Positions 19,054-25,417 of a stretch of DNA of 64,000 nucleotides are shown here, one piece after another. Under the pieces are notes generated by a model. It was not told where the DNA came from. It saw nothing but the letters and a program-made list of their open reading frames with translations, and ran no database searches. The stretch comes from Longibacter salinarum (GTDB taxonomy: Bacteria; Bacteroidota; Rhodothermia; Rhodothermales; Salinibacteraceae): positions 682,001 through 746,000 of the forward strand of contig NZ_PDEQ01000002.1 of NCBI RefSeq assembly GCF_002554795.1. Direction: 5' to 3'. Within the stretch, counting starts at the first letter, position 1. Each line of letters begins with the position of its first letter. The translations under genes and the position numbers were made by a program.

Positions 19054-19548
19054 TTAGCACGCGGCGCCAAAGTCGAACAGAGAGCGGGGTGTACTCCGCT
19101 CCATCGAAACGATAATGTCCGTGTCGACCTGCCCGGAGGCTGCACGAGATCGTGGCGTGATCGAGATGTGGGAAAAGCGCCAACCGTCCTCGACCGCCTT
19201 GTTCAGGTGGCGAAGACCCGTCGTCTCGTTATTTCGCTGATGGAGGACGACCTGCCGCACATCTTTGCCTGGATCGGGTGATGGGTGATCAGGGGTTTGC
19301 GTCCGCTTCGACCGACTCTTGGTGGACCGAGAACGGTCGGAGCGCTGCGAATCCGATTGACGCTGGTTCGGGGCGGTTGCGGACGACCGTGTGCCGCCAT
19401 GATCGGGTCCGTTTTCCGATCGGCGGGATGAGCCCGTTGAATGGCTAGAATGTGGCGCTGACTCCGTGTCCTCGCGGTCGGACTGCAACAGCGGATCGTC
19501 GTCGGCTGAGCCAAAGATGCTACCGAAAAATCCTTCGGAGTTCGACAT
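19054..19548 (-). CDS. ParA-partner candidate 1: disordered protein with GFFG/DDPLLQ head and SLFDF tail
   Basis: 164 residues, not a known named family. I start it at ATG 19548, which gives MSNSEGFFGSIFGSADDDPL, because the paralogue at 22853-23467 begins the same way. The middle (about 25-95) is Ser/Arg/Asp/His-rich and surely disordered. The last 65 residues form a small domain with LRHLNKAVEDGWRF and then strands, resembling the LNxxxxxGWE pattern of DUF4177, ending STPRSLFDF plus four residues. It lies 43 bases downstream of a ParA ATPase on the same strand, so the two form an operon. A disordered partner next to an orphan ParA suggests an adaptor between the ATPase and a cargo (as McdB is for McdA); this is inference. 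Confidence 0.72.
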   Translation of the reverse strand: MSNSEGFFGSIFGSADDDPLLQSDREDTESAPHSSHSTGSSRRSENGPDHGGTRSSATAPNQRQSDSQRSDRSRSTKSRSKRTQTPDHPSPDPGKDVRQVVLHQRNNETTGLRHLNKAVEDGWRFSHISITPRSRAASGQVDTDIIVSMERSTPRSLFDFGAAC

Positions 19549-19591
19549 AGCAGAGAGAATCAGAGTATAAAAGTAACAGTTCAGTTCGGCG

Positions 19592-20449
19592 CTAGGAGGC
19601 CATTCTGTGTTTTGAGTCAGACGCGTCGGTGTGCTTTTCACGATCGTCTGCAGTGCGGCGTACGGTGCCATAGATCGATCCATAGCGATCGATCCGTTCG
19701 ATGATCTCATCGACGAGCGCTGCGTAATCCGTTGCTCCGCGGGAGTCGGGGGCGGAGTCGAAGACCGATTTTCCGAATGCGGGTGCGTTCTCGATGGCTG
19801 GATCATCGCGGATTTCGGTATTGAATACTTTTCCACCGTAGTGCCCCCGTACCTCATTGATGATCGCGCGGGTCTGCTCGTCTTCGCGCTTTACCATCGT
19901 TAGGACAACGCCAAGCACAGGGGCTGCTTCACCGATGCTCAGTCTTACATTTTTGACCACCTGACCGAGGCTGATGACGCCTTCTAAGGAGAGATAAGAG
20001 GGCGAAACCGGGATGATGAATGCGTCTGCGGCGACCAACGCGTTGACGCTGAGTAGGGATGTGGAAGGGGCACAATCGATCAGTACGACATCGTATTCAT
20101 CCTCAACGCGCTCGATCGCATTGCTAAGACGCTTTTCTCGGTTTGGCTGGCGCGAAAGGCGTGTATCCGTATCCGCGAGTCGGAGCGATCCCGTGATCAG
20201 GTCGAGGTCCGGTGTCTTGGTTGATCGGATCGCATCTTCGATTTCGATGTCACCGAAGAGCACGTCCGCACTGGATGGGTTGAGCTGATCACGGTCTACT
20301 CCCATGGCCAGTGATGCAGAACCCTGGCTATCGAGGTCAATAACGAGCACCCGTTTCCCGTTACGGACAAGACCGGACGCGACGTTGATCGTCGTCGTTG
20401 TTTTGCCGACACCGCCCTTATTGTTGATGATGGGGATCGTCTTGATCAT
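19592..20449 (-). CDS. ParA/Soj-like ATPase 1, without ParB
   Basis: 285 residues from ATG 20449, which puts IPIINNKGGVGKTTTTINVA at the N-terminus; the longer frame adds a 24-residue Pro-rich head with no family match. The deviant Walker A (KGGVGKT with signature Lys), VLVIDLDSQGSASLA (switch I region), YDVVLIDCAPSTSLLSVNAL (Walker B) and the Soj-type end GGKVFNTEIRDDPAIENAP are all present. Such ATPases bind DNA non-specifically as ATP dimers and move DNA or protein cargo across the nucleoid. No parB or parS candidate is nearby. It is closely related to the ATPase at 24608 and heads an operon with partner 1. Confidence 0.93.
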   Translation of the reverse strand: MIKTIPIINNKGGVGKTTTTINVASGLVRNGKRVLVIDLDSQGSASLAMGVDRDQLNPSSADVLFGDIEIEDAIRSTKTPDLDLITGSLRLADTDTRLSRQPNREKRLSNAIERVEDEYDVVLIDCAPSTSLLSVNALVAADAFIIPVSPSYLSLEGVISLGQVVKNVRLSIGEAAPVLGVVLTMVKREDEQTRAIINEVRGHYGGKVFNTEIRDDPAIENAPAFGKSVFDSAPDSRGATDYAALVDEIIERIDRYGSIYGTVRRTADDREKHTDASDSKHRMAS

Positions 20450-21163
20450 GGGTGGAGCAGGTGAAGGCTGAGGAGGAAGCTCTGTACGGCAGCGTTGGCG
20501 TAAAGGAGTCGGCACGCACACGTGCCAATGCTGCGGTACCGACTGGACCTATTTGCAGAGGCAAAGAGCGAACCAGCTGTATGGAGAATTGGATGGCAGA
20601 ACGGCGGGATAAGATTTAATGATGCTATCAGGTCAATGCGGCGCCGTGGACGTGTCCGGAAAAAGTAGAATAGTCTCTTGAGCTTGACTTTTATCACTTC
20701 CAATGAAGTGTTCTTAGATCATGCAATTTATATAGGGATATAATCTCGTCACTACTCCGCCTTCTGCTTCTGCCTTGACTACTAAATATTGCAAGAATGT
20801 GGCAGGCTGGGTAATTAGTAAACGCGTGACCGAGCTTGCACCCGCAGGGATCCGGTTGCCGAATGCGTGGCGGCCTTTTCATTTGCATGTCTTTGGGGAG
20901 TTGGACGGTTCAGCCATCGGTGGATGTTTTGGTATGGCATGAGAGGCGAGCCGGTAGGCATTTTTGATTCGACATACGTGAGTAAGAGCAATATCAACGT
21001 TTCCGTGATGGCACGGCCGATGCGCCGAATGTTGTAGATCCTCGAGTGTGTTCGGCGTACCTTAAGATCATGCATCCCTGTCCGTGGAGACCGACGACCC
21101 TGTTGGTCAGCACTCATCACCTCGCCGTGCGGTATGGAGTTGCGCGGCTGAATCCATGTCGTT
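20450..21163. promoter_or_regulatory. Divergent intergenic region, partly A+T-rich
   Basis: 714 bases between ParA 1 (minus) and the small membrane protein (plus). Stretches near 20600-20790 are markedly A+T-rich, including tttatatagggatataatc at 20730-20748, and probably hold the parA promoter. I see no gene, repeat or hairpin with a T run. Confidence 0.4.
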
Positions 21164-21445
21164 ATGCTAGAGATTACTGTTCTCATCGCGAGCACCCTCC
21201 CGTTTCTTCTTGGCCTGTACGCGCTCAAGATCATTGAGCGTAGGCGGAACGGAGGCGATGATCCACCGCCGCCACCAGACGAGGGCCCGATGCCACCGAT
21301 TGCACCGGAGCCCGGTGCCCCTTCTCTTCGTCTTTCGTCCGGTTCGTCGGAATCCGGTCACGAGCGCATCGACCGCGGTCCCGTACGGGTGACGCGTCCA
21401 ACTGAACGGTCCCGGCGTCCCGTTCGAAGCCAAAGTTTCGCATAG
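21164..21445 (+). CDS. Small single-pass membrane protein with proline-rich tail
   Basis: 93 residues. One N-terminal hydrophobic helix (ITVLIASTLPFLLGLYALKI, residues 4-23) is followed by the basic stop-transfer ERRR and then a Pro/Gly/Ser/Arg-rich cytoplasmic tail beginning DDPPPPPDEGP. The order of hydrophobic helix, positive charges and disordered tail argues for a real gene. I know no family for it. It sits within the ParA/partner cluster, but a link is only positional. Confidence 0.5.
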   Translation: MLEITVLIASTLPFLLGLYALKIIERRRNGGDDPPPPPDEGPMPPIAPEPGAPSLRLSSGSSESGHERIDRGPVRVTRPTERSRRPVRSQSFA

Positions 21446-21738
21446 ATGGGTGCGGGTCCAACCGTAGTTTTCGTTTCGTCCCAATGTGGCATGTCTAGCC
21501 ACGGTTGTTCGTGGATCCGCATCTTTTTCCATAGATTGCGAACGATTCGACCGTAGCGATCCGTCAGTTGTGCTACGTTTGCGTGGCGGCATGTGCGTTG
21601 CTTCATGTGAAAACGTACATCTAGCGTCACTCTTGAAAACTGATCGAGGCGACGGACGCCTGTTACCGGCGACGTCTCTCAGTACGTTTCTCGCGGTCGC
21701 CCCTTCTGATATCGTTTCCCCAACCCCCCTTCGTGCAT

Positions 21739-22746
21739 ATGAATCGATGGCTTCAAACGCTCACAGCAACGTTTCTCATTGTCTCACTCGGGTACGCCGG
21801 GCCAGCGAATGCGCAGTATGAAGATGTAGGCAGTCTTGATGAACTGAGCGGCGCCCTCGAGGTGATGGCCGGTCAGTACGCCGACAATTACGTTCAGCCG
21901 GTATCCGACGCGTTCGGCGCTGGGATGAACTCGGCCATGTTTCGCACGGCCGACGCCGGTGGAGGCATTTTGCCGGGCGTCGATGTTTATGTCGGCGTAT
22001 CCGTCACCGGCGCGCTCATGGCTTCGTCGGATCGCTCCTTTCTCCCGCAGAACCAGACCCTAACGGTAGATGGCCGGGAACTGAGATTCGACTACTCGAA
22101 TGGTCGGGTCCCGACGGCTTTCGGAGAGACCAAGACCCCGAGTGCCACGGTCGATATCACGGACGTAGGCACCGGGCAGACAACGAACGTTCAGTTACCA
22201 CCTGGCATCGTAAACACGCCGGTGGCTCCGCTCGTCATCCCACAGCTTGGCGTCGGAACGGCATTCGGTACGGATGTGATGCTTCGGTACCTGCCGCGCA
22301 CCCGCCTGAAGAGCTACGGTACGGTCGGCGTCTTCGGGCTCGGCGTGCGCCACAGCATCAGTCAGTATATTCCGATGTCACCCGTCGATATCGCGGTCCA
22401 GGGCGCCTACAACTCGATCTCGCTTGAGGATAAGAACGTCGAGGGCGATGTGCTCGACGCATCGGGATACGCCTTCAACCTTCAGGTGAGCAAGAGCCTC
22501 CCGGTTCTCCCGGTAACGTTCTATAGCGGGCTGCAGTATGAGACGTTCGATGCCAGTTACGCGTACACGTTTCAGCCGCAGAACAGTAACATCGATCCCG
22601 TTAGCTTCACGCTCGATCAGGAAGCGAGCAACAAAGTTCGCGGCGTCGCCGGGGTCACGATTACGCTCGCTGTCGTGCGCATCAATGCGGATTACAGTCT
22701 CAGCGGAAATGATGTCGTGACGGTCGGTATGGGCGTACAACTTTAG
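21739..22746 (+). CDS. DUF6588-like outer-membrane beta-barrel protein
   Basis: 335 residues from ATG 21739; the frame could also open at GTG 21733, two codons earlier. A signal peptide of about 26 residues ends ANAQ. The mature part begins with a helix (LDELSGALEVMAGQYADNYVQP), then alternates strands of beta-barrel type, such as YGTVGVFGLGVRHSISQYIP and VTITLAVVRINADYSLSGND, with a final strand ending VGMGVQL. This layout fits the Bacteroidetes DUF6588 family, whose function is unknown. The gene ends at a strong two-way terminator shared with the converging partner-2 gene. Confidence 0.78.
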   Translation: MNRWLQTLTATFLIVSLGYAGPANAQYEDVGSLDELSGALEVMAGQYADNYVQPVSDAFGAGMNSAMFRTADAGGGILPGVDVYVGVSVTGALMASSDRSFLPQNQTLTVDGRELRFDYSNGRVPTAFGETKTPSATVDITDVGTGQTTNVQLPPGIVNTPVAPLVIPQLGVGTAFGTDVMLRYLPRTRLKSYGTVGVFGLGVRHSISQYIPMSPVDIAVQGAYNSISLEDKNVEGDVLDASGYAFNLQVSKSLPVLPVTFYSGLQYETFDASYAYTFQPQNSNIDPVSFTLDQEASNKVRGVAGVTITLAVVRINADYSLSGNDVVTVGMGVQL

Positions 22747-22773
22747 CGTTCAATCGGTACGCATACGCATAAA

Positions 22774-22820
22774 GAAGCGGCTGCGACGGGTTTAGAGCCC
22801 GATCGCAGCCGCTTCGTTTT
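22774..22820. terminator. Bidirectional terminator between DUF6588 gene and partner 2
   Basis: A 13-bp perfect stem (gaagcggctgcga at 22774-22786 with its complement at 22803-22815) encloses a further 4-bp stem. TTTT follows at 22817 on the plus strand and TTT on the minus strand. Confidence 0.85.
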
Positions 22821-22852
22821 GTTGGACCGATGGCGATCCGCAATGCCACCGG

Positions 22853-23467
22853 TTATTCATCAGGGACATCGAAGTCGAAAAGGGACGGTGCACTGTCTCT
22901 TCGTAACACAACATCCACGAGTGTGTCGTTTTCTGACGCGCTGCGAACGGTTTCTACGTACCAGCCATCGTTCACGGCGTCATTGACCTTTTGGAGGTCC
23001 GCTTCTTCATGGGATCCGGAGCGGATCCGCATCTGGCGCTTCGCGCGGGGCGAGGTATCGCCTCCAACCTCGGCAACACCTGTCGATTCCGACACGGGGT
23101 TTGGGGAAGAGCCCGGGGCGTAATGGTCGCTCAGTTTATGTTCTTGTCGGTCGCCTGAAGACGAGGGGCGTCCGTTATGCGAGCGGCCCTGTTGGGTAAC
23201 GTCGTCTGGAGGCGCGGTGCGGTCCATGACGTTCTGGATCCGGGCATACAGGGATGGCGGCCCTGCCGACGAATCACGTTCTACATCGGCCTCCTGTTCA
23301 GATGGTGGTGTCGGCGTGGCATCGGGTGCGGCGTCCCGTTCGGCGTCTTCGGATTCTTCCAGTATGGACGCATCAAACGTTTCCCTCGACGGCTCAGACG
23401 GTTGCAGAAGCGGATCATCATTCGGTGTACCGAAGAAGCCTTTGAGAAACGCGGGACGATTGCTCAT
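22853..23467 (-). CDS. ParA-partner candidate 2: disordered protein with GFFG/DDPLLQ head and SLFDF tail
   Basis: 204 residues from ATG 23467 (a GTG two codons earlier is also possible). It begins MSNRPAFLKGFFGTPNDDPL, matching partner 1 at both the GFFG and the DDPLLQ. Residues 25-135 are an acidic Ser/Pro/Asp/Glu-rich disordered linker. The C-terminal domain shows RQMRIRSGSHEEADLQKVND, AVNDGWYVETV and VDVVLRRDSAPSLFDF, then a short acidic end. It has no ParA in the same operon: the nearest is divergent at 24608, beyond the LC7 gene. Its function is unknown; the paralogy with partner 1 is the main evidence that both are real genes. Confidence 0.72.
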   Translation of the reverse strand: MSNRPAFLKGFFGTPNDDPLLQPSEPSRETFDASILEESEDAERDAAPDATPTPPSEQEADVERDSSAGPPSLYARIQNVMDRTAPPDDVTQQGRSHNGRPSSSGDRQEHKLSDHYAPGSSPNPVSESTGVAEVGGDTSPRAKRQMRIRSGSHEEADLQKVNDAVNDGWYVETVRSASENDTLVDVVLRRDSAPSLFDFDVPDE

Positions 23468-23774
23468 TCGCACAAATCGAGAAACAGTGGACTGGAAGCA
23501 GGCGGACCTGCAAGCGAGTTAGCCCGCCATTGCAGCGGGAACGGCTGTAACCAATGGTCTACAATCGCGGGGGGCGGCAGAGATGTATGAAGGGGAAATC
23601 CCCACCTGCTTGTGGAAGAAACATGCGCCCGTTTGACCCGCAGTCGTAGGACTTCCAGTATCCGGACGCAAATGCGAGTACCAATGTCGATGGGCGACCA
23701 CAGCACGGCGGTCGCCCAACACAAGACATACTCGAATACGATCGACGGATGTCAAGTGACATCCCTTCGTTCCA
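23468..23774. promoter_or_regulatory. Region upstream of partner 2 with two inverted repeats
   Basis: 307 bases between the LC7 gene and partner 2, both on the minus strand. It contains gggcgacc/ggtcgccc (23692-23699 and 23710-23717, 10-nt loop) and ggatgtca/tgacatcc (23747-23754 and 23757-23764, only 2 bases apart). Neither is followed by a T run. The second is too tight for a hairpin and looks more like an operator. Confidence 0.4.
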
Positions 23775-24140
23775 TTAGTTGAGCTCTAGCGTACCGTCAA
23801 TCTTCTCGAGCTGGATCCGGGCAAGGGCCAGGTTTGACTTCTCCTTGTTGAGAGCGACGTACGTGAAGATGTCATCGTTCTCGTGAAACATGCGAATCAG
23901 GTGGTACTGATTATCCAGCGTGATCAGAATGTCCTGGATCTGCTCATCGAGCTGCAGCTGCTTGATGATTGATTTCTTCGCACGGACAACCTCCGTGTTT
24001 CCTGCTCCGGCGAGCTCCATATCGAGCGAGCCGCCACCAATCGTGCCCAGCGTCATTCCCGATTTATAGTCGACGAGAGCGGCACCCACCGCACCGTCGA
24101 TCTCCATGATTTGATTGAGTGAGTCTTGGATGTTAGCCAT
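23775..24140 (-). CDS. Roadblock/LC7-domain protein
   Basis: 121 residues that form one roadblock/LC7 domain from end to end: LNQIMEIDGAVGAALVDYKS is the first helix and strand, followed by a helix with NTEVVRAKKSIIKQLQL, then strands DILITLDNQYHLIRMF and IFTYVALNKEKSNLALARIQ. In bacteria these domains regulate small Ras-like GTPases (MglB on MglA) or act as dimeric scaffolds. No MglA-type GTPase is in the window. The gene lies between partner 2 and the divergent ParA 2, so a part in the same positioning system is possible but unproved. Confidence 0.85.
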   Translation of the reverse strand: MANIQDSLNQIMEIDGAVGAALVDYKSGMTLGTIGGGSLDMELAGAGNTEVVRAKKSIIKQLQLDEQIQDILITLDNQYHLIRMFHENDDIFTYVALNKEKSNLALARIQLEKIDGTLELN

Positions 24141-24607
24141 AAATCTGAGGTTACTTTAAACCGCGTTGCTTGAAAGGGGGAGGTGACGCTACGTGTGTGG
24201 GTAGCAAACAATAAATATACCATACCTACGACAGTATCAATTTTATCACGTTGTGAACCCGTGTGGCGAACTATCTATGGCCGGGGAAAGGCAATGATTT
24301 CCCTACGGTCGGTCTCAATACCTGGTGCGGGTGAGCATTCCGTTAGGTCTTTGCCTGCGGTGTCTCCCTGAAGATGATCTCCTTGCCTCCGGCCCCGGCT
24401 GTCCAACCATCCGCCAAACAGGTTGCGAGTCTCCACGCTTTTCTACAGAGCAGGCTAGCCTCAACACGTCGAGAACGCCCGTATCAGGGAGCGCCGTGTT
24501 AATTCGTTGTGGAGTCATGAGTCCGTAACGAGTGGAGGTTAAACCCGAATACATTGGCGGCGTTTGCGCATTCAATCAACGTACGTTTCCATGGAGTTCG
24601 GAGCTTG
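24141..24607. promoter_or_regulatory. Divergent promoter region between LC7 gene and ParA 2
   Basis: 467 bases, A+T-rich at 24140-24260. It must drive the LC7 gene leftwards and ParA 2 rightwards. The in-frame upstream extension of ParA 2 to 24554 lies here but adds no family sequence. Confidence 0.45.
24212..24240 (-). promoter_or_regulatory. Candidate promoter of the LC7 gene
   Basis: On the minus strand TTG (24240-24238), 18 bases, then TATATTTA (24219-24212), seven of eight matches to TAnnTTTG with near-normal spacing. It lies about 70 bases upstream of the ATG. Confidence 0.4.
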
Positions 24608-25417
24608 ATGCAGATTATCCCCATCATCAACAATAAGGGCGGTGTCGGAAAAACAACGACCACGGTAAACCTGGCGGCCGGGTTGGCGCACCGTGGGAAG
24701 CGCGTCCTCCTGATCGACCTGGACAGCCAGGGATCGGCGTCATTGGCCCTCGGGGTCTCCCATGATCAACTCCAACCATCGGTTGCGGATGTGCTTTTCG
24801 GGAAGCGGACGTTCGCCGAGACGGTACGGAGCACAGACGTAGATGGGCTGGATCTACTCACCGGTTCGCTCGAGCTTGCGAATGCTGATATTCGCCTCAA
24901 GGAGACGCGTCGTCGTGAATGGACGCTTCATCGTATACTCGACCCGATTCGCGAGACGTACGACGTGATTCTCATCGATTGTGCCCCGTCTACCTCGGTG
25001 TTGACAGTGAATGCGCTGGTAGCAGCCGACGCCTTCATTGTACCGGTCCGTCCGACATACCTGGCGCTGGCGGGTGTGGTCGGGCTGGGAGAGGTGGTCA
25101 AGAACGTGAGGGAAGGGGTTGGGGAAGCAGCGCCGGTCCTCGGAATTGTCGTCACACAGGTCGGAGGCGAAAAAGATGGTCATCCGCCGGGAGTGCAGGA
25201 TGAGGTGATTGATGAGTTGCGGACGCACTATGGCGGGAAAGTATTTAACACGCTGTTGCACTACGATCCGTCGTTGGAGCAGGCGCCGGCTCATAGCGAA
25301 GATATATTTGAGTTCGCCCCGAAGTCCCGTGCTGCCAGTGAATATGCGCTTCTTATCGACGAAGTGGAGGAGCGGATTGAGCGATACGGAAATGTGTATG
25401 CCCGCGTGAACCGATAG
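24608..25417 (+). CDS. ParA/Soj-like ATPase 2, without ParB
   Basis: 269 residues from ATG 24608 (MQIIPIINNKGGVGKTTTT). Walker A with signature Lys, VLLIDLDSQGSASLALGV, YDVILIDCAPSTSVLTVNAL and HYGGKVFNTLLHYDPSLEQA show a complete ATPase. By eye more than half its residues match ParA 1, including long identical blocks around each motif and the DQLxPSxADVLFG stretch, so the two arose by duplication or joint transfer. The main differences are in the C-terminal third (EKDGHPPGVQDEV versus REDEQTRAIINEV), a region that in ParA proteins helps contact DNA and partner. No ParB is nearby. Confidence 0.93.
   Translation: MQIIPIINNKGGVGKTTTTVNLAAGLAHRGKRVLLIDLDSQGSASLALGVSHDQLQPSVADVLFGKRTFAETVRSTDVDGLDLLTGSLELANADIRLKETRRREWTLHRILDPIRETYDVILIDCAPSTSVLTVNALVAADAFIVPVRPTYLALAGVVGLGEVVKNVREGVGEAAPVLGIVVTQVGGEKDGHPPGVQDEVIDELRTHYGGKVFNTLLHYDPSLEQAPAHSEDIFEFAPKSRAASEYALLIDEVEERIERYGNVYARVNR

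Follow-up and report, generated by a model that had tools for sequence, protein, structure and literature searches.

Numerous bacterial ATPases of the ParA family count as orphans, since their partners vary too much to be recognized. We analyzed a 64,000-nucleotide stretch (the window) of the Longibacter salinarum genome, whose assembly comprises 4,406,485 bases in 22 contigs. The window encodes two similar ATPases of this kind, ParA1 and ParA2, each of which lacks a ParB and has its own small partner protein, here called an adaptor, as an initial annotation of the sequence had proposed. They are orphan ParAs with an undescribed adaptor family and an unusual charge pattern.

Several described systems resemble parts of this locus. 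McdA-McdB likewise pairs an orphan ParA with a small partner, whose N-terminal stretch binds the ATPase and which has a distinct part for the cargo (PMC10241942, PMC12204374), but McdB needs basic N-terminal residues (K7), whereas the adaptors described here are acidic at the N terminus. The ParABS (Soj-ParB) system shares the ATPase motifs, and the window ParAs and their subfamily are about 35% identical to the Soj of their own genome; in contrast to that system, they have neither a ParB nor parS-like repeats, and the equivalents of Soj R189 and R218 are replaced. The chemotaxis ParAs ParC and PpfA are, like the proposed module, members of the ParA family that act on protein cargo (PMC10241942). 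Salisaetaceae, the host family, are described as nonmotile, salt-requiring rods (PMC6856283). Because the genome has no match to bacterial microcompartment (BMC) shell proteins (PF00936) or to CheW (PF01584), we rejected both carboxysome or other BMC cargo and chemotaxis-array cargo; the initial annotation had cited carboxysomes and chemotaxis clusters as examples of what orphan ParAs position. MglA-MglB and the actinobacterial conservons resemble a module on another contig of the genome, C9, in which a canonical Roadblock protein, a Ras-like GTPase, and a sensor protein are joined, and a protein encoded at the window locus, P0005, has the MglB fold in a predicted model; however, the window locus has no GTPase, and those systems have neither ParA nor adaptor. 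ParA goes unmentioned in the main text of the Wuichet 2014 survey.

The reading that we favor, at a rough probability of 0.45, is that ParA and adaptor together place a cytoplasmic protein complex, plausibly a sensory complex that contains Roadblock proteins. The window would then hold two chromosomal copies of a three-part module: an ATPase of the ParA type, its small adaptor, and a Roadblock-fold protein, the last being present in several of the module's copies.

Pairing of a ParA subfamily with an undescribed adaptor family

Gene pairing, the adaptor domain plan, co-occurrence with a ParA subfamily, and arginine loss in the ATPase were established at the level of sequence, and the Roadblock fold through a predicted model. 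The gene for ParA1 (P0002, 285 amino acids; 19592 to 20449, minus strand) is the first of an operon with the gene for adaptor 1 (P0001, 164 amino acids; 19054 to 19548, minus strand), the two being 43 nucleotides apart on one strand, as first annotated. In the second module, the gene for ParA2 (P0004, 269 amino acids; 24608 to 25417, plus strand) diverges from a pair of minus-strand genes in which P0005 (121 amino acids; 23775 to 24140), with its predicted Roadblock/LC7 fold, lies upstream of adaptor 2 (P0003, 204 amino acids; 22853 to 23467). Both promoters, that of roadblock-adaptor 2 and that of parA2, presumably lie in the intergenic region between them (24141 to 24607), in which no repeats were found. 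The ParAs and both adaptors are intact open reading frames; these four genes had been annotated correctly, but the Roadblock-fold gene and a third ParA-partner pair elsewhere in the genome had been overlooked. ParA1 and ParA2 share 59% identity across 269 amino acids and match PF13614 (ParA/AAA_31) with E values of 1e-52 and 2e-53. The two adaptors are homologous (BLASTP E value, 1e-9; 29% identity with long gaps), and the ends that they share are conserved in relatives.

Relatives from 12 genomes have a common bipartite layout. Near the N terminus is a motif of the approximate form F-x(3)-F-x(4)-D-D-P-L-L, which a variable, mostly acidic linker connects to a C-terminal domain in which an L and a W are invariant; many members end in SLFDF. 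In adaptor 1, these elements are the FFGSIFGSADDDPLLQ motif, a polar linker, a DUF4177-like C-terminal domain, and the SLFDF end; adaptor 2 has the FLKGFFGTPNDDPLLQ motif, an acidic linker, a C-terminal domain of the adaptor 1 type, and the SLFDF tail. No Pfam or NCBIfam family matched the adaptors, and a sequence search of solved structures with the adaptor found nothing. Six of 29 C-terminal domains matched DUF4177 (PF13783) weakly (best E value, 4e-4; those scored fell below the cut-off), and a structure model predicted a beta-alpha-beta-beta arrangement (predicted local distance difference test [pLDDT] score, 78). Because the fold search yielded nothing beyond weak matches to pieces of dodecin, GNAT, and KCTD proteins (Z scores under 6), we claim no fold family for the adaptor. 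The partners had been annotated as disordered; simple disorder is contradicted by the folded domain predicted at the C terminus. Stand-alone proteins with the DUF4177-like domain are found widely across the order; the adaptor may therefore have originated by addition of a ParA-binding N terminus to a pre-existing C-terminal domain. L. salinarum itself has one such protein, at 380 kb on contig C2 (L108, 6313 to 6618), whose syntenic relatives throughout the family adjoin a ligase-like gene of the ATP-grasp type.

We found 22 adaptors. Fifteen of them, spread across 12 genomes, are encoded directly downstream of parA, on the same strand and 9 to 75 nucleotides behind it, and two more share a locus with parA, namely, adaptor 2 of the window and its decayed relative in genome G054, for which the Roadblock gene lies between parA and the adaptor gene. 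The remaining five are encoded elsewhere (three in G074 and two in G068), in genomes that also have linked copies. The partners are therefore found mostly beside parA (15 plus 2 linked versus 5 elsewhere), as would be expected from the initial annotation. Strong adaptor matches were present in 12 of the 114 genomes of the order, and all 12 also encode the ParA subfamily, which itself occurs in 13 (Fisher co-occurrence P values of 2e-15 in the order and 1e-6 in the family, uncorrected for shared descent). The thirteenth genome, G052, contains a deletion relic (L119, 66 to 2009) in which the first parA codons are fused in frame to the adaptor C-terminal domain; the relic adjoins a photolyase-type gene, which is also a neighbor of the window locus. 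Outside the order, no adaptor was detected among 394 sampled genomes of the phylum. The partners form a genuine family, not described before, that accompanies this ParA subfamily, which bears out what had been suspected from the window.

The annotated lack of ParB and parS for these ParAs was borne out. The single ParB of L. salinarum adjoins the canonical Soj gene on contig C5, which is not the contig of the window, and in each genome with ParA and adaptor the strong ParB match sits at another locus. No parS-like tandem or direct repeats were found in the intergenic regions at 19500 to 19620, 20350 to 21800, and 24100 to 24700. On these grounds, we discarded the idea that either ATPase has a ParB or parS partner. 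A further explanation is that the modules are remnants of integrated plasmids with type Ib-like DNA partition, in which ParA acts with a small centromere-binding protein: the order of parA and small gene resembles that of type Ib cassettes, and the third copy in this genome and its relative in G067 lie on contigs of 184 kb and 287 kb, respectively, either of which is possibly a plasmid. This is nonetheless improbable, given that the partner is mostly acidic (isoelectric points of 4.1 to 5.1 in 16 of 18), that its C-terminal domain is predicted to be beta-alpha-beta-beta and not ribbon-helix-helix, that no centromere-like repeats were found, that the DNA-binding arginines of the ATPase are lost, and that the PLSDB plasmid records hold no close relative. 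Separately, G052 encodes a divergent ParA (L086, 3297 to 4855) followed by a 72-amino-acid protein that has no Pfam match and resembles a ribbon-helix-helix protein by eye; these two are perhaps a true partition pair.

Charge pattern of ATPase and adaptor

ParA1, ParA2, and their subfamily keep the ParA/MinD motifs, which are a deviant Walker A with a signature lysine and the aspartates of Walker A' and Walker B; the retained residues are the signature lysine K11 as well as K16, D40, and D125. In Bacillus subtilis Soj, R189 and R218 are the arginines that bind DNA nonspecifically (PMC3778016). The position equivalent to R189 is arginine in all 18 Soj-type ParAs of the order and mostly D, E, S, or H in the subfamily; that equivalent to R218 is arginine in 17 of the 18 and mostly A, V, S, or K in the subfamily; and the N216 equivalent is changed to D in 20 of 22 subfamily members. 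The ParA tree does not settle the deep branching order or prove the subfamily monophyletic, and it places both window ParAs weakly. A search of the genome_contigs set with ParA1 as the query found no relatives.

Known partners of ParA/MinD ATPases dock via a positively charged N terminus (PMC10241942), K7 of McdB being one instance (PMC12204374). Residues 1 to 30 of the adaptors were net negative in 19 of 19 cases (mean, -6.3), and the first 20 residues averaged -3.5, versus about +1 for ParB N termini from the order. The ParB of this halophile retains a basic LGKGL start, so the acidic N termini of the adaptors are not merely those of an acidic proteome. The adaptor-ParA pair thus breaks two supposedly general rules, the basic N terminus of the partner and the conserved DNA-binding arginines of the ATPase, and the partner family is defined here through gene pairing, co-occurrence, and its two-end architecture.

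Under the positioning model, the ATP-bound ParA dimer would sit on a cellular surface, and the DDPLL segment at the adaptor N terminus would dock on it and trigger hydrolysis and release. The DUF4177-like domain at the other end would hold the cargo, which would thereby be spread, spaced, or placed along the rod-shaped cells. The likeliest cargo would be a soluble cytoplasmic signaling complex built on Roadblock proteins. The ParA subfamily might use a surface other than the known nucleoid route.

Roadblock proteins and sensory genes in ParA-adaptor modules

The AlphaFold2 model of P0005 (pLDDT, 89.5) matched Roadblock/LC7 structures, including MglB and Ragulator subunits, with a Foldseek E value of 1e-6, and it aligned with MglB and Roadblock structures at VIA Z scores of 16 to 17 over 114 to 116 residues. 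By sequence, P0005 had LAMTOR5 and Robl_LC7 matches that were both below threshold; because the Pfam Robl_LC7 match stays below the cut-off, the modeled Roadblock fold places P0005 in a divergent branch of the Roadblock/LC7 superfamily. A profile comparison between P0005 and the canonical Roadblock protein of contig C9 (profiles of 15 and 2 sequences) recovered no relation, and the structure model decided the assignment.

The third ParA-adaptor pair of the genome, on C9, heads a module in the order ParA, adaptor, Robl_LC7, GTPase, protoglobin, and P0005-type Roadblock. The Robl_LC7 protein of this module (PF03259; E value, 4e-17) is the sole one in the genome, the protoglobin matches PF11563 with an E value of 1e-30, and the GTPase is Ras-like; G067 has an equivalent operon minus the GTPase. 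Operons of Roadblock, protoglobin, and second Roadblock genes, with or without the GTPase, that lie behind ParA and adaptor (L069, 10904 to 13003; L074, 6347 to 7885) adjoin a divergent S24/CI-like repressor gene, and they possibly constitute an oxygen- or heme-sensing module.

All three Roadblock genes detected in L. salinarum lie within ParA-adaptor modules, for which the chance would be about 1e-7 if they were independent. Proteins of the P0005 type occurred in 8 of 244 genomes of the class, 7 of which also have ParA and adaptor. In the eighth, G021 (Rhodothermia bacterium 8_bin.12; L148, 6887 to 9668), one P0005-type gene lies on each side of a ParA-like gene, the Walker A motif of which is degenerate (NNMSVGQVKGQ). 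Near ParA modules, P0005-type genes were found in G000 (two loci), G054, G067, and G068, and at other loci of the same genomes (L144 and L147) they adjoin genes for GAF/PAS histidine kinases. The Roadblock connection of the ParA-adaptor modules is suggestive. If ParA and adaptor instead position some other cargo, the Roadblock genes would be neighbors through some other cause, for instance shared mobility. That several ParA-adaptor genomes have no Roadblock gene would fit this explanation, as would the many adaptor paralogues, some of them unlinked, whose linkers differ as if for several cargos; the recurrent linkage of P0005-type genes to these ParAs, even to a degenerate one in G021, makes it rather unlikely.

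The Roadblock genes also keep company with sensory genes where ParA is missing. Outside the order, Delftia and Comamonas have P0005-type genes with Roadblock and Ras-like GTPase genes and without ParA, and plasmid pSU2 of Agarilytica (L154, 6001 to 8072) has an apparent operon, likewise without ParA, of P0005-type, BLUF photoreceptor, Ras-like GTPase, and Roadblock genes. Because it is seen in this form, the Roadblock/GTPase/sensor set exists independently and is joined to ParA and adaptor in this lineage. A GAF/PAS kinase gene precedes ParA and adaptor in apparent operons at L082 and L083, and at L075 it precedes ParA without adaptor.

These neighborhoods lend weight to the main rival explanation, a signaling switch that does not move anything, in which the ParA ATPase would regulate the Roadblock, GTPase, and sensor proteins through its nucleotide state and the adaptor would be the coupling protein. 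Loss of the Soj DNA-binding arginines, the Roadblock, GTPase, and protoglobin neighbors, the operonic histidine kinases, and the ParA-free sets that include a BLUF sensor all agree with such a switch. However, the ParA/MinD superfamily chiefly positions cargo (PMC10241942), and a dedicated adaptor made of a short N-terminal motif, a linker, and a folded domain apart from them has the layout of a positioning partner; we regard the switch as a real but lesser possibility than positioning.

Several observations weigh against the positioning of a Roadblock-containing complex. The P0005-type Roadblock is missing from the ParA-adaptor genomes G046, G047, G056, G058, and G059, the last three of which are incomplete. 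No cargo gene is common to all loci, and five adaptors have no neighboring parA. The adaptor family was found only in this order, where it occurs in the family of L. salinarum and one genus of another family, so pairing and co-occurrence represent few independent lineages. Finally, with the DNA-binding arginines lost and the charge pattern altered, these ParAs are unlikely to bind the nucleoid in the known way. A narrower version of the positioning model, in which a charge-inverted ParA-adaptor pair, independent of the nucleoid by the known route, positions a complex of Roadblock protein, Ras-like GTPase, and heme sensor, is unlikely on present evidence; if true, it would be the first tie between ParA-type positioning and bacterial Roadblock-GTPase modules. 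A true Roadblock link would make soluble sensory complexes a candidate cargo class and would offer a tractable test of ParA positioning without the known nucleoid-binding residues.

Constraint, decay, and exchange between close relatives

Between close species, adaptor and ParA are under amino acid constraint, with nonsynonymous divergence (pN) well below synonymous divergence (pS). In the sister species G054 (GSL.Bin3; L070, 7011 to 9153), parA2 is split by an IS3-type insertion and carries additional stops, and adaptor 2 contains two stops. The first module, parA1 with adaptor 1, is intact there; ParA2 and adaptor 2 have decayed together in this species. G054 also has an extra roadblock gene upstream of parA1; a search of the window for a remnant of this gene found none.

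Comparison of the window with G054 gave pS values of 0.26 and 0.33 for adaptor 2 and the Roadblock gene, versus 0.64 to 0.68 for flanking genes, and the parA2 stretch is 88% identical in DNA to L070, versus 78% for flanking genes. Since synonymous divergence is lower than in the flanks, later lateral exchange or gene conversion of the stretch from 22853 to 25417 is suggested. This apparent exchange, like the S24/CI-like repressor that adjoins the type II modules, would also suit a selfish or defense-related cassette. We consider such a cassette very improbable, since PADLOC gave a generic P-loop only, PHROGs gave no match, and different genera show the same chromosomal synteny with genes for inorganic pyrophosphatase and DUF6588. 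A phage origin was rejected as well: in addition to the lack of a PHROGs family, matches to phage ParAs were distant, the best among those listed having 36 to 37% identity.

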